64,000 nucleotides of DNA from Gemmataceae bacterium (lineage in GTDB: Bacteria > Planctomycetota > Planctomycetia > Gemmatales > Gemmataceae), in the NCBI GenBank assembly GCA_003136315.1, contig PLDW01000088.1:1-64000 (forward strand). Reading direction: 5' to 3'. This document shows positions 3,841 to 44,308 of this stretch, in pieces; the first letter of the stretch is position 1; the number at the start of each line of letters is the position of its first letter. The position numbers were made by a program, and so were the translations under genes. Below the pieces are notes generated by a model that made no database searches, had not been told where the DNA came from, and saw only the letters and a program-made list of their open reading frames with translations.

Positions 3841-4050
3841 GGCACCCCCTTCACTTTTTCCCACTCTTCCGAACCGGTTTCACCGGCTCGGATTCTGGTA
3901 CTCCCGTTACATCATAACAACCACAGAATGCTACAGCCCACCTCAGCGCCCGGACGTGTGCGACTTCGGTCACCCTTACCCACCCTCTCCGGCCTGCGGG
4001 GGAAGCTCCAGACCGCGCCAGATGTACCACGTTGCGACGCTACGATAAGG

Positions 4051-37847: not shown

Positions 37848-39053
37848 ATGAACATCCACGAGCTGATTCAGGAACTGCGTGAACCTGCGGACTCGAAAAT
37901 CGTCCTGCTGGTCGCCGATGGCCTCGGCGGGTTGCCGCTGGAATCAGGCGGAAAAACCGAACTGGAAACCGCCTCGACCCCGAATCTGGACGCCGTCGCA
38001 CGGGACGGCGTGACCGGGCTGAGCATCCCCGTTCTTCCCGGAATCACTCCTGGGAGCGGGCCGGGGCACCTGGCCCTGTTTGGCTACGACCCGCTCGAAT
38101 ACCGGATTGGCCGCGGCATCCTGGAGGCCCTCGGAATCAACTTCGCCGTCGGTCCGAAGGACGTGGCGATCCGCGGGAATTTCTGCACCCTCGGGGATGA
38201 CGGAACGATCACCGACCGCCGGGCTGGCCGACCCAGTAACGAGAAGAATGCCGCCGCTGTGGCGAAACTCCGGAAAATCCAGATCCCCGGAGTGGAGCTG
38301 TTTGTCGAACCGGTTCGGGAACACCGGTTCGTGGTCGTGATCCGCGGCGACGACCTCGGTGATCGGGTCAACGACACCGACCCCCAAACGGTCGGGGTCC
38401 ACCCGCTCAAAGCCGAAGGGGCAGACTCTGCGTCCCGCACAACCGCCAGTGCCGTGAACCAGTTCGTCGCACGGGCGGTGGAGGTTCTCAAGGACGAGGG
38501 GCCGACAAATGGGATCACGTTGCGGGGGTTCGCGCGGTTCCCGAAGATCGCGAAATTTGAAGAGGTGTACGGACTGAAAGCCGCCGCGATCGCTGTCTAC
38601 CCGATGTACAAGGGGCTGGCCCGACTGGTCGGGATGGACATTCTGGAGCCGGGGACGACGCTCAAGGGGCAGGTGGAGACGCTCAAGAAGGTCTGGCGCG
38701 ACTATGACTTCTTTTTCTTGCACTACAAGTACACGGATAGCACCGGGGAAGACGGAAACTTCCCGGGGAAGGTGCAGATGATCGAGAAGTTGGATGGGAT
38801 CATCCCGGACATCCAGGCTCTGGGGCCGGACGTGTTGATTGTCACCGGGGACCACTCGACCCCGAGCAAGATGAAATCGCACTCGTGGCACCCTGTCCCG
38901 ACGGTCCTACTCGCGGACACCTGCCGGACAGACGACGTGGAGGAGTTCAACGAGAGCGCCTGTTTGCGAGGCGGCCTGGGTCAGTTCCAGGCCCAGCACC
39001 TGATGCTCCTGGCAATGGCCCACGCCGGGCGGCTCGGCAAATACGGGGCGTGA
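37848..39053 (+). CDS. apgM: 2,3-bisphosphoglycerate-independent phosphoglycerate mutase, archaeal-type
   Basis: KIVLLVADGLGGLPLE, ETASTPNLDAVARDGVTGL, GSGPGHLALFGYDP, VTGDHSTPSKMKSHSWHPVP. Confidence 0.85.
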   Translation: MNIHELIQELREPADSKIVLLVADGLGGLPLESGGKTELETASTPNLDAVARDGVTGLSIPVLPGITPGSGPGHLALFGYDPLEYRIGRGILEALGINFAVGPKDVAIRGNFCTLGDDGTITDRRAGRPSNEKNAAAVAKLRKIQIPGVELFVEPVREHRFVVVIRGDDLGDRVNDTDPQTVGVHPLKAEGADSASRTTASAVNQFVARAVEVLKDEGPTNGITLRGFARFPKIAKFEEVYGLKAAAIAVYPMYKGLARLVGMDILEPGTTLKGQVETLKKVWRDYDFFFLHYKYTDSTGEDGNFPGKVQMIEKLDGIIPDIQALGPDVLIVTGDHSTPSKMKSHSWHPVPTVLLADTCRTDDVEEFNESACLRGGLGQFQAQHLMLLAMAHAGRLGKYGA

Positions 39054-39129: not shown

Positions 39130-39180
39130 TGACGCATGGGCCACTTCGTCTACCGCGACCGCACCCTCTTCTGCGAAGAC
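39130..39180 (+). repeat. Partial duplicate of the lysA 5' end (copy 1)
   Basis: 51 nt identical to 39991-40041 except two positions; decayed lysA-like reading (ELATGYAG) continues to ~39215. Confidence 0.85.
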
Positions 39181-39238
39181 GCGCCTCTGAGTTGGCCACG
39201 GGGTACGCGGGAGGAAAGGGGGTTTATAAGATGAACGC

Positions 39239-39568
39239 ATGTCCCGCAGGAGTCGCGCCATGATCGTGACCAAGCCCGAAACCCTGCTCACTATCACTGA
39301 ACACGAAGCCACTCCGGAAGAACGGGCGAGAAACCTGGCGAGACTCGAGGAATTCCGGAAGAACGTCGAGTGGTTCGGGGCTCATGCCACGGAACTCCGC
39401 AACGCTCACGCGGGCCTCTTCGTCTGCATCTTGGGCCAGGAGGCATTCGTCGGGGACGACCCGGTCGAGGTTGTGGCACGGGCAAAAGCGGCGCACCCCG
39501 CGAGCCCGGGCGGGTCGTTCACCATCCGACTCTCCATCCATGAAGGGCCAAAGATTTATGCGGCTTGA
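39239..39568 (+). CDS. Small protein (DUF5678-like) paired with retropepsin-like protease
   Basis: 109 aa: HAGLFVCILGQEAFVGDDPVEVVARAKAAHP; overlaps next ORF. Confidence 0.6.
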   Translation: MSRRSRAMIVTKPETLLTITEHEATPEERARNLARLEEFRKNVEWFGAHATELRNAHAGLFVCILGQEAFVGDDPVEVVARAKAAHPASPGGSFTIRLSIHEGPKIYAA

Positions 39569-39992
39569 GGGCACCTGGGCAATTGATGCCGCTGGAGTCT
39601 CCTGGCCTGTCATCACGGCCGAAGTGCAGGGGGCTGGCGGGGCGTGGATCGAGTGCGAATTCCTCCTCGACACTGGTGCCGAGATCACGGTCATCGCCGC
39701 GAACATTTTCCACCAACTCAGGCTGCCCAGCCTTCCGTCATCGCACGGGCTCCAAGGAGTTGGAGGGACGGTCGGATCGGTGCGAGTCGACACAGTGATC
39801 CGGTTTACCCAGCCCGACGGCACTCATGCGACCGTCCGGAGCCAATTCCACGCTGCACCAGTGCCGGGTACAGTTGAGATGTCCCTCCTGGGGCGAGACA
39901 TCCTCGGGAATTTCGCAGTGATCGTGGACCGGCCCGGGAAGACCATTTGTCTATTGCACGGCAAGCACCGTTATGTCATTCAGGAAACCTGA
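39558..39992 (+). CDS. Clan AA retroviral-like aspartic protease
   Basis: ECEFLLDTGAEITVIAANIF (DTGA motif), SLLGRDILGNFAVIVD. Confidence 0.85.
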   Translation: MRLEGTWAIDAAGVSWPVITAEVQGAGGAWIECEFLLDTGAEITVIAANIFHQLRLPSLPSSHGLQGVGGTVGSVRVDTVIRFTQPDGTHATVRSQFHAAPVPGTVEMSLLGRDILGNFAVIVDRPGKTICLLHGKHRYVIQET

Positions 39993-39995
39993 CGC

Positions 39996-41285
39996 ATGGA
40001 CCACTTCGTCTACCGCGACCGCACTCTCTTCTGCGAAGACCTTCCCATTCCCGAACTCGCTGCCGAGTACGGGACGCCGCTGTACGTCTACAGCCAGGCC
40101 GCCCTGCTGGGGCAACTCACCGAGATCCAGACAGCGTTCGCTCCGGCGAACCCGATTGTCTGCTACAGCGTAAAGACCAATGGGAACCTGTCACTCTGCA
40201 AGCTCATGGCCGAGCACGGGTCGGGATTCGATGTCACCTCCGGCGGCGAGTTGTACCGTGCCCTCCGGGCCGGATCGAAGGGATCGAAAATCGTCTTCGC
40301 TGGCGTCGGGAAAACCGATGCCGAGATGGCCTATGGCCTGGAAAATGGCGTCTTCCTCTTCAATGTCGAAAGCGAGGGTGAATTACACGCCCTTGGGTCG
40401 GTTGCGAAGTCTCTGGGTGTGAAAGCCCCGGTGGCACTCCGGGTCAACCCGGACCTCCCACCCAAGACCCACGTCAAAACCGACACATCCGTGAAAGGCG
40501 TCAAATTCGGACTCGATATCGAAACTGTCGTCGATGTCGCCAAGTCCGTGGTTGGACACCCGGGACTGGCGGTCGTTGGGCTCCACATGCACCTCGGCTC
40601 GCCCATTCTGAAGGCCGATCCCTACCGCGCAGGCGCTGACAAAGCGGTCACACTGATCCGGGCGTTCCGTACACAGGGTCACGACATCAAATACCTGAAC
40701 ATGGGTGGCGGGTTCGGCATCCATTACCGGAAGCAGGAAGCTCTTCCAGCGGCAGCGTTTGCCGAGGTGATCCTCCCGGCAGTGGAGGAAACGGGCTGTC
40801 AACTGGTTCTCGAACCTGGCCGCTTCATCGTCGGGAACTCGGGTATCCTCGTCAGCCGGGTGGTGTTCACCAAGGGTACAGGCGGCAAGCACTACATCAT
40901 CCAGGATGCCGCCATGAATGACCTCATCCGCCCCACCCTGTACGACTCGTTCCATCGAATCTGGCCGGTCGCCCCCGGACCCGATATTACCGAATGGCCG
41001 GACGACTGTGAGGCGGCGATCCCCGGGACATATCCCCAGGACGTGGTGGGTCCGGTGTGCGAGTCCGGAGACTTTCTGGCCAAGGGCCGGAACCTGCCAC
41101 CCCTGACCCGTGGCGACCTGCTTGCCACCTTCAGTGCTGGGGCATACGGCATGGCGATGGCAAGCAACTACAACAGCCGACTCCGTGCGGCGGAAGTACT
41201 CGTTACAGGCCGCACGCACCGATTGATCCGCCGCCGGGAGACGTTCCGAGACCTTGTCGCGTGTGAAGAGGATTGCTTAACCTGA
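39996..41285 (+). CDS. lysA: Diaminopimelate decarboxylase
   Basis: PLYVYSQAALLGQL, CYSVKTNGNLSLCKLMAEHGSGFDVTSGGEL, GLHMHLGS, EPGRFIVGNSGI, CESGDFLAKGR. Confidence 0.9.
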   Translation: MDHFVYRDRTLFCEDLPIPELAAEYGTPLYVYSQAALLGQLTEIQTAFAPANPIVCYSVKTNGNLSLCKLMAEHGSGFDVTSGGELYRALRAGSKGSKIVFAGVGKTDAEMAYGLENGVFLFNVESEGELHALGSVAKSLGVKAPVALRVNPDLPPKTHVKTDTSVKGVKFGLDIETVVDVAKSVVGHPGLAVVGLHMHLGSPILKADPYRAGADKAVTLIRAFRTQGHDIKYLNMGGGFGIHYRKQEALPAAAFAEVILPAVEETGCQLVLEPGRFIVGNSGILVSRVVFTKGTGGKHYIIQDAAMNDLIRPTLYDSFHRIWPVAPGPDITEWPDDCEAAIPGTYPQDVVGPVCESGDFLAKGRNLPPLTRGDLLATFSAGAYGMAMASNYNSRLRAAEVLVTGRTHRLIRRRETFRDLVACEEDCLT

Positions 41286-41380
41286 ACCGCCGCGCCAAAA
41301 TCGACATAAGAGTGCCCGACCGCCGCCCTGGGCGGGCATCCCACATTGGATCCCATGATCGGCACCAAGAGGACACCCTG

Positions 41381-44308
41381 GTGAGAACCATCCTGTTTCC
41401 CGGAGTGCTCGCCCCCCGGCAGCGTTGGCTCCTCGGGTGCTTGGGGTTCGGGCTGGCACTTGTCATAGTTGTGGCGAACAGCCTACCTGCTGCTGCTCAG
41501 GAGGCGCAGAAGGGGCCACCGCCCAAACCTCAGGAAGTGTTCCAACAAGTCCGGTTACTCATTACGGAGGGGAAGTACGACCTCGCTGCGGTCTTCCTCC
41601 AGGCGTTCGTCGACAGTCCCCGCACCGACGACGATGTGTTCGAGTTGGAGAAGCGTTACGGGACCACCACATTTGTCCAACTTCGGACCATTCCAAAATG
41701 GTCCGACGACATCAAAACCGAGAAGCAAGCTCGGGCAAATACTGAGATCATCGTCAAGTGGGCGACCGAGGCGATCGACAAAGTCCTCAAAAACCCGACT
41801 CGGGTTCAAAAGTACATTCGCAACCTCGGGGCCACCTACGAAGAGAGACAGTACGCGGAGGTGGAACTCCGCCGCACCAGCGATTTCGCCGTCCCCTTCA
41901 TGGCCGAATCGTTCCGCAAGAACCTCGACCCGAAGATCTCGGCAGCGATCCTCGGGACAATTCCCACCCAGGATCATGCATCCGTCGCTGCGTGGCTGGC
42001 CGCACTCGACGGATTGACCCCCGAACAGCAATTCACGGTGATCGCCGCTATCGTCTCCAGGCCGGACGTGTTGTTACTCCTGAACAAGGCACAGACCGAC
42101 TTCGTTCCGTACTTATTGTGGGTTGCTGGCTCTCCTTCAAGCCCGCCGGCCTTTCGGACATTCGCCACTGAGCAACTGCGGATTCTTCTTCCCGGAGCCA
42201 GGAAACTTCCTCCGGAAGCCGTACTCGTTGTCGCCGCGAGGGTTTACGCGGAACAGAGGGCGGTCTACGCCGACGCAGCCGTTAACCCAGACGGGCGGCC
42301 AACGACCGTTCCAGTGTGGATCTGGACGAGTGCCGACGAGAAACTCGTGAAGCAGCCAGTCGTTCCCGCCAGTCAAGCTGACGAATATTTCGGCCTGCGT
42401 TACGCCCGGTGGGCTCTGGAGATCCGGCCCGATTACGAACCAGCCCAGGTACTCGTGATCACGATTGCTACGGAACGGGCAATGGACCGTGGCAAATTTG
42501 GAGATCTGGCCCGGACCGACCCGGCTGTCTACCAGATGCTCGCGACCGCTCCGACCACGGTTCTCACCGACCTGCTTGCCCGGGCGCTCGTCGAGAAGCG
42601 TACGGGTCTGACACTCGCGCTCACCCAGGCAATCGGGGACAGGGCCGAGAAAGCTCCAGCGAGTGCTCCGGATGGGAAACTGTCGCTGCTGGCACGCGGC
42701 CTGGACTACCCAGACCCGCGGGTGCAACTCGCTGCCGCCCACGCCCTCCTCCGAGCCGCTGTCCCGGTGGATCCGAGTCTCAAAATCCGCGTGATCGAAG
42801 TGCTCAGGCGAGCCGCCGCAGCCGACCCCGGAGTTCCCAGCGGAGCCAAGGGGCAGGCCCTCGTCACCGACCCGAATCGACAGCGGGCCGACGCTTCCGG
42901 CGCACTCCTCCGTGGGCTCGGCTACGATGTCGAATTATTCGCCAATGGCCGCGACCTGCTCCGACGAGTCGCTCGGGCCTCCGACTTTGACCTGATTCTG
43001 ATTGACCATCACGTACCCAACCCGGAACTCCCTGACCTCATGGCCCAACTCCAGGCCAACGTCAACACGGCTCGCCGACCGATCATGGTTGTCGCCTCCA
43101 CTGATAACCCTATCCCACCTAGCCTCGACCAGCTCCTCCTCCGCGTGGCAGTTCTCATCGCAGCAACTGAGAGCGATCCAATTGTGATGCCTACCCCGTT
43201 CGTCCCGAACCTCCGACAACCACCCGAAACCCGGGATTCCGAACGTGCGGCGGTGCAGACTCAGCGCGACAACATCTTCCGATCGACCGCTCAGGTCCGG
43301 ATCGACCGACTCCAGCGCGTCGTTGACACTGCCGGACTTGCGTTGACCTCCGATCAGACCTTCCAGCTTCAACTCAGGATCGAACAGGTCACCTACGCAG
43401 CACTTGCAGCCGAGTACCCACTTACTGCCGAGTCGGCACCGCGCACATTCGAGCACGTCGCCCAGCTCCAGAAACAGCTCAGGACCCAACCCTCGGTCCC
43501 AGCTTACACCCGCCGCCTGGGAATCGACCACCTGATGAAAGTGATCGAACGCCTCGAAATCGATGTCGCGAAGGTGAAATACTCTCAGGACAGGTACGAC
43601 GCCCTCCAGAGCCGAGTCGATGCCGAGGCCCTGGGGTTGGTTGTCCAGTCCCCACGCGACCCGTTCATTGAGGCTCGTGTGGCAAGGCTGGTCCGGTCGA
43701 TCCCCGGGGTTCGGGTGATCCCAGAACCCTACTCCAGGGCATGGTTTGAGGCGGACGTGAATGCTGCGTTTGCTGATCCAGCCGACCGGCCTCGCGACCC
43801 GATTGAGAAAAAAGCCGCTGCGAAACTCGCGGTCGGGCTATTGGCCAAGATGGCAACCGGGGAAATACCGGGCTTTGATGTGAAGTCCGCTGCTCCGGAA
43901 CTCATTGCTGCTCTGCGGGTCGATGATCTCACAGACCCTGCACTCCAGGGGGCTGCCCGCCTCCCCTCCGCCGAGGCCCAGCAAGCTCTGATCACTCTGG
44001 CCCTGACCGTTGGTCGCCCCCTTCCCTTCCGTATCAGGGCTGCCGATGCTGCCATCCGTCACGTTCAGGCGAACGGAAAACTGACACCCGATTCCCTGGC
44101 AGGACCGATCGCCACCCAGTCAGGTGCAGAACCCGACCCTGAACTTCGTGGGAAGTTCGGAGTTCTCAAGGGTTTACTGGTGCCGGCTCCGGCAGACTAC
44201 CTCAACAGTCTGAAGACCTATTCCCCACCCTTAATCCCCCCGGCTGCCCCGATGCCCAAGGACGGTGTGGTTCCACCTGCTGGCAAGCCTGAGGAACCCA
44301 AGTCGTAA
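41381..44308 (+). CDS. Large secreted protein with HEAT-like repeats and an embedded receiver-like domain
   Basis: Signal peptide-like N-terminus (LGFGLALVIVVANSLPAAAQ); alpha-helical repeats; RGLGYDVELFANGRDLLRRVARASDFDLILIDHHVPN...MVVAS. Confidence 0.6.
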   Translation: MRTILFPGVLAPRQRWLLGCLGFGLALVIVVANSLPAAAQEAQKGPPPKPQEVFQQVRLLITEGKYDLAAVFLQAFVDSPRTDDDVFELEKRYGTTTFVQLRTIPKWSDDIKTEKQARANTEIIVKWATEAIDKVLKNPTRVQKYIRNLGATYEERQYAEVELRRTSDFAVPFMAESFRKNLDPKISAAILGTIPTQDHASVAAWLAALDGLTPEQQFTVIAAIVSRPDVLLLLNKAQTDFVPYLLWVAGSPSSPPAFRTFATEQLRILLPGARKLPPEAVLVVAARVYAEQRAVYADAAVNPDGRPTTVPVWIWTSADEKLVKQPVVPASQADEYFGLRYARWALEIRPDYEPAQVLVITIATERAMDRGKFGDLARTDPAVYQMLATAPTTVLTDLLARALVEKRTGLTLALTQAIGDRAEKAPASAPDGKLSLLARGLDYPDPRVQLAAAHALLRAAVPVDPSLKIRVIEVLRRAAAADPGVPSGAKGQALVTDPNRQRADASGALLRGLGYDVELFANGRDLLRRVARASDFDLILIDHHVPNPELPDLMAQLQANVNTARRPIMVVASTDNPIPPSLDQLLLRVAVLIAATESDPIVMPTPFVPNLRQPPETRDSERAAVQTQRDNIFRSTAQVRIDRLQRVVDTAGLALTSDQTFQLQLRIEQVTYAALAAEYPLTAESAPRTFEHVAQLQKQLRTQPSVPAYTRRLGIDHLMKVIERLEIDVAKVKYSQDRYDALQSRVDAEALGLVVQSPRDPFIEARVARLVRSIPGVRVIPEPYSRAWFEADVNAAFADPADRPRDPIEKKAAAKLAVGLLAKMATGEIPGFDVKSAAPELIAALRVDDLTDPALQGAARLPSAEAQQALITLALTVGRPLPFRIRAADAAIRHVQANGKLTPDSLAGPIATQSGAEPDPELRGKFGVLKGLLVPAPADYLNSLKTYSPPLIPPAAPMPKDGVVPPAGKPEEPKS

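Follow-up and report, generated by a model that had tools for sequence, protein, structure and literature searches.

The window analysed here is a stretch of 64,000 nt from contig PLDW01000088.1 of a Gemmataceae bacterium, and the features considered lie around lysA, which is intact and 84-89% identical to its same-genus orthologues (Table 1). Two small genes, here termed A and B, are situated between apgM and lysA; they overlap by 11 nt, the 3' end of B abuts the lysA start, and to the left of the pair there is a second copy of the lysA 5' end.

Table 1. Features of the apgM-lysA region, in window coordinates.
Feature	Positions	Strand	Basis
apgM (2,3-bisphosphoglycerate-independent phosphoglycerate mutase-like); downstream side is a rearrangement point	37848..39053	+	same-genus comparison
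Copy 1, lysA 5' fragment with leader TGACGC and ATG at 39136	39130..39180	+	49/51 identity; tblastn
Decayed lysA sequence after copy 1 (nt 46 to about 76 of the gene), with 4-nt deletion	39181..39207	+	anchored lysA profile
Probable argH 3'-end remnant, last 9 codons including TGA (REERGFIR-stop)	39208..39234	+	argH-end profile
Gene A, 102 aa, DUF5678-like (helix plus beta-beta-alpha)	39260..39568	+	Pfam matches of relatives; AF2
Gene B, 144 aa, retropepsin-like aspartic protease of clan AA with a DTGA motif	39558..39992	+	PF00077; AF2; PDB fold matches
Copy 2, comprising the B stop codon, a CGC spacer and lysA codons 1-15	39990..40040	+	repeat comparison
lysA, intact diaminopimelate decarboxylase, 429 aa	39996..41285	+	PF02784 and PF00278
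Conserved lysA-downstream protein	41378..44308	+	3' of lysA in all same-genus genomes

The product of gene B matches PF00077 (E=8.9e-9), and its AF2 model (pLDDT 92.9) finds Rickettsia 5c9f and retroviral proteases in the PDB, so that B combines the DTGA catalytic motif with the retropepsin fold expected of a retropepsin-like aspartic protease. The gene A protein of the window has no Pfam match, and a fold search with its model (pLDDT 84) gave no significant match. Of 21 gene A relatives, seven match PF18929 (E 9e-4) and 14 match PF25537, under the curated cut-off where one is shown; the best of them scores 19.4 bits for DUF5678 against a Pfam cut-off of 23.2. A full-text literature search for DUF5678 returned one passing mention. 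Among the 28 closest relatives from a scan of species genomes, 27 have A ahead of B and the 28th begins at a contig end; these relatives come from Planctomycetota, Acidobacteriota, Myxococcota/Deltaproteobacteria and Latescibacteria. B may be a cytosolic homodimeric retropepsin-type protease, with A as its obligate partner or regulator.

Searches of PHROGs yielded no matches to the pair, a promoter scan found no promoter, and the only PADLOC result was a weak match, at motif level, between the B protein at L148 and the candidate defence protein PDC-M08B (E 5.9e-5). At one locus, L089 (G068:C221, 4461-6741), three A-B pairs stand in tandem about 0.8 kb apart. The pairs at L126, L128 and L144, in records titled Klebsiella pneumoniae MAG, closely resemble those of Deltaproteobacteria MAGs, and this title probably reflects mislabelling or contamination.

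The lysA 5' end is present as a direct repeat of 51 nt, with 49 identical positions and a start-to-start distance of 860. The preliminary description had recorded this repeat with its two mismatches, but had placed the second copy one base off, at 39991-40041. The next longest direct repeat in a 6-kb scan is 25 nt at 72% identity, and the 51-nt repeat is therefore far above chance. Residues 1-18 of LysA align by tblastn with 39136-39189 (83% over 18 residues, E=1.8e-5), and, apart from lysA itself, copy 1 is the only lysA N-terminal sequence in the 11.6-Mb genome to which the window belongs. It is a non-functional lysA 5' fragment.

A decayed lysA-like reading had also been proposed to continue after copy 1, and this was supported. 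When anchored to the 51-mer, the following 27 nt fit a lysA profile better than random DNA from the window does (p about 0.002, a result that holds when the lysA of this genome is excluded), and the 4-nt deletion within them shifts the reading frame. Between species, lysA is conserved over its first 15 codons but not over the following ten; this is the natural pattern of lysA divergence, and on its sequence copy 1 looks like another lysA allele and not like a recent copy.

The decayed lysA segment is followed by a probable remnant of the argH 3' end, whose TGA is 25 nt before gene A. Scored against an argH-end profile built from genomes with argH3'-A junctions, it gives p values of 0.0007-0.006 for nine codons and 0.006-0.02 for seven or 12 codons, and its best matches are the duplicated argH end of G065 (see below) and the argH of G057. 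Plain local alignments gave no significant match of the copy 1 tail to lysA, to argH or to the 3' end of B; significance was reached with the anchored profiles alone, such that on the window alone the tails are suggestive. No significant B remnant was found between apgM and copy 1. The TGACGC preceding copy 1 is the same as the junction between B and lysA, suggesting that a B gene was formerly present in the left allele as well. Together, copy 1 and its tail (39136-39234) form an open lysA-argH fusion frame of 32 codons (MGHFVYRDRTLFCEDAPLSWPRGTREERGFIR), which has a possible role as a leader peptide.

We compared the locus among 98 related genomes, one genome per species. Within the family, argH, lysA and the conserved downstream protein form a fixed block in which the argH-lysA interval holds variable cargo. 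Gene B is present in 24 of the 98 genomes, and in 12 of these the A-B pair is at lysA: argH-A-B-lysA in G003 (of the same genus) and G083; argH-DUF3817-A-B-lysA in G054 and G061; argH-A-B-DUF3817-lysA in G051 (with B truncated), G053, G057, G059 and G064; B 0.8 kb upstream of lysA in G081; and the remaining two in G065 and the window. The B-TGACGC-ATG-lysA junction of G003 is identical to that of the window, and the pairs at lysA cluster in the A and B trees, with 3 and 2 changes, respectively, versus about 10 in shuffles. Where B abuts lysA, its conserved ending VIQE is encoded with AT(C/T)CAGGAA (window 39980-39996, L148 in G003, L080 in G061 and L079 in G054); this could, from its sequence, serve as the lysA ribosome-binding site, and lysA translation may constrain the B C-terminus.

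These arrangements alter the interpretation offered in the preliminary description, that the pair had entered at the lysA start. The broken lysA 5' end upstream of the pair and the intact lysA downstream are as described, but the pair is not a discrete newcomer, as it lies between argH and lysA in 12 of the 24 B-bearing genomes, including G003. An ancestral pair at this site had been named as grounds for rejecting insertion, and because A-B occupies the argH-lysA interval in about half of the B-bearing genomes this holds in part, for the locus; the particular pair in the window is probably foreign. The converse arrangement, a duplicate without the pair, occurs in none of the 98 genomes, and none of the other five same-genus genomes has a second lysA 5' fragment. 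A search with the LysA N-terminal protein, which replaced a too-narrow scan with a strict lysA-start pattern, revealed lysA 5' fragments in only two of the 98 genomes, the window's and G065, each directly to the left of A-B.

The upstream flank of the window has been rearranged. In all five other same-genus genomes the upstream neighbour of lysA is argH, and apgM is on another contig or at a large distance, which calls for one additional rearrangement at least. The argH gene of the window's own genome (L116, G000:C109, 2064-3437) is apart from lysA, unlike in all five of these. It retains its usual upstream neighbour there, and apgM, with its usual neighbour pgi, is now 5' of lysA, showing that the further rearrangement touched the same spot. 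The downstream protein follows lysA in all same-genus genomes, and the lysA side of the backbone is thus unrearranged.

The second fragment is in G065, of another genus (g18), where the layout of the window recurs unmistakably. The order is argH, a small gene, DUF3817 and a lysA 5' end of 68 nt with its start ATG mutated to ACG, joined to 84 nt of an argH 3' end followed by A, B, DUF3817 and lysA. The duplicated DUF3817-lysA5' blocks are about 93% identical over 453 nt, and thus represent two alleles and not a recent duplicate. The second argH end is unlike G065's own argH, and its 3' half resembles that of G057, which has argH-A-B. We conclude from the block and the foreign argH end that two alleles of the interval were joined, with homology on one side and a non-homologous lysA|argH joint on the other.

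A chimeric join at the conserved 45-nt lysA stretch could in principle mimic such a structure, since the window's genome is a draft of 524 contigs, and an apparent third lysA-5' duplication, in G059, was rejected as an assembly break, being an exact 101-nt overlap of two contigs. We consider such an artefact very improbable, as copy 1 is within a 94.7-kb contig and is decayed past the 51 nt, and G065 has the same layout within a 9.8-Mb contig.

We give equally little credence to A-B as an autonomous mobile element that generated a target-site duplication at the lysA start. Pairs are found at many other loci in several phyla, as this would predict, but only A and B lie between the copies, with no transposase or integrase, no terminal repeats or inverted ends flanking the pair, no constant target duplication, and no plasmid match at 1e-5; moreover, argH 3' DNA comes along in G065. 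The preliminary description had suggested that the same pair might be found elsewhere with host-gene 5' duplications, but insertion-tied flanking repeats are absent at the non-lysA pairs checked. Two candidate repeats were also discarded. Flanking repeats in G091 (39/50) are a repeated leader before gene A and a downstream small gene (L085, G091:C289, a 50-nt leader-like repeat at 3966 and 4777), the product of the small gene being DUF5678-like by eye, and a 14-mer in G053 is a chance match within gene A.

The affinities of the window's pair lie mostly with the other genus. Its gene A is 50-57% identical to A of five g18 genomes and, in a pairwise alignment, 39% identical to that of same-genus G003. 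A and the B body both fall with the g18 pairs (97/95 support for the B body) and not with the G003 pair at lysA. The last 36 residues of B are closer to lysA-abutting B genes (75, 69 and 67% versus 58-61%), with 18-19 of 36 third codon positions shared compared with 10-13, and DNA similarity between the window and G003 is confined to the last 107 nt of B plus lysA. The grouping of A and the B body with g18 and the lysA-type tail of B together suggest that the pair is probably a foreign body joined to a resident-like tail.

These affinities bear on whether the structure could have arisen by tandem duplication within the genome, in which argH-A-B-lysA becomes argH-A-B-lysA5'|argH3'-A-B-lysA and the left argH-A-B is later deleted as apgM is joined on. 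This would account for the B stop and spacer (TGACGC) before copy 1, for the argH tail and for the loss of argH from the locus. It predicts even divergence, however, whereas the first 51 nt contain two differences and the next 27 nt are heavily diverged. Neither the approximately 93% identity of the G065 DUF3817 copies nor a duplicated argH end that is not G065's own fits this expectation, nor does the grouping of the window's A and B body with another genus, and we regard such a duplication as unlikely.

A further possibility, which we think improbable, is that lysA5'|argH3'-A-B is one old joint common to both genera, and behaves as a recombinase-free cassette that excises and re-enters lysA via its flanking lysA-5' repeats. 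The piece of housekeeping gene would then be a homology arm, a working lysA would be restored each time, and A-B would be selected or selfish cargo, an extension we find similarly doubtful. The pairs are related, and the points at which lysA breaks off in the window and in G065 differ by no more than about 7 nt, but the arrangement is present in only two of the 98 genomes, the two pair bodies are only about 41% identical, the window has 27 nt of argH against 84 nt in G065, and neither a circle nor an empty site was seen with one genome per species compared.

We therefore favour, as the somewhat more probable explanation, the integration of foreign argH3'-A-B-lysA5' DNA at lysA, the 51-nt repeat being a recombination scar. 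The donor would be another lineage of the family with an argH-pair-lysA gene order, contributing a segment from the argH 3' end through A and B to the lysA 5' end. Homology would be provided by the lysA 5' end, and possibly the conserved 3' tail of B, and the other side would be a non-homologous joint of lysA at about nt 70 to the argH 3' end. The exchange could proceed by a single crossover with a circularised fragment or by homology-facilitated illegitimate recombination (HFIR) with a linear one; a linear fragment with one homologous end would give the same product if its illegitimate end joined inside the duplicated region. The product would be a broken lysA 5' end, the argH 3' remnant, A, B and an intact lysA, with copy 1 decaying afterwards, and exchange of the interval variants would have been followed or accompanied by the rearrangement that put apgM in the former place of argH.

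Integration by this route is consistent with a homologous side that continues as an intact gene (the B-lysA junction, with a pair that groups with the other genus) and with a partial target duplication and non-homologous joint, clear in G065 and probable in the window. Homologues of comEC and dprA are present in the window's genome; their presence would fit uptake of free DNA but is no demonstration of it. Against integration are the short argH remnant in the window, only 27 nt, and the modest significance of each tail (about 0.001-0.02); moreover, a simple gain does not predict the TGACGC before copy 1, and the presence of apgM rather than argH upstream demands the extra rearrangement.

The process is already known. 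In an E. coli assay of HFIR, 56 of 60 products were partial target-gene duplications, and the 14 that were sequenced measured 109-950 bp, with single crossovers given as their origin (PMC3240628); the same paper cites work on such recombination in Acinetobacter, Pseudomonas stutzeri and Streptococcus pneumoniae. Our loci share with these products one homologous side, a non-homologous joint and a partial target duplication beside foreign DNA, but are decayed natural products for which the event is deduced from sequence. They also resemble the small variable segments between conserved genes described at the species level, about 10% of which have flanking direct repeats (PMC2884548), in that short cargo is exchanged between fixed flanking genes; the exchange here is across genera of one family and leaves a traceable argH/lysA scar. 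HFIR has also been proposed for the effector-immunity arrays of the Vibrio cholerae T6SS, in which two-gene modules are swapped into a fixed locus by sequential displacement, leaving remnants of previous alleles (PMC5361080). No toxin-immunity function is known for A-B, and the remnants beside it derive from its flanking genes, lysA and argH. B shares the DTGA retropepsin fold with Rickettsia APRc (PMC4140852) and RimB (PMC11957791), but differs in always being paired with a DUF5678-like protein.

The scar is thus one of exchange between variants of the argH-lysA interval and not of the insertion of a self-contained element, and A-B is a habitual occupant of that interval. The points of interest are a well-preserved double example of this process and an A-B module that is uncharacterised. 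The scars, resolved to the base in two genera, show that short modules can be exchanged between housekeeping genes of fixed position with no dedicated mobility genes, mark argH-lysA as a site of exchange in this planctomycete family, and draw attention to an unstudied two-gene protease module that is present in several phyla.
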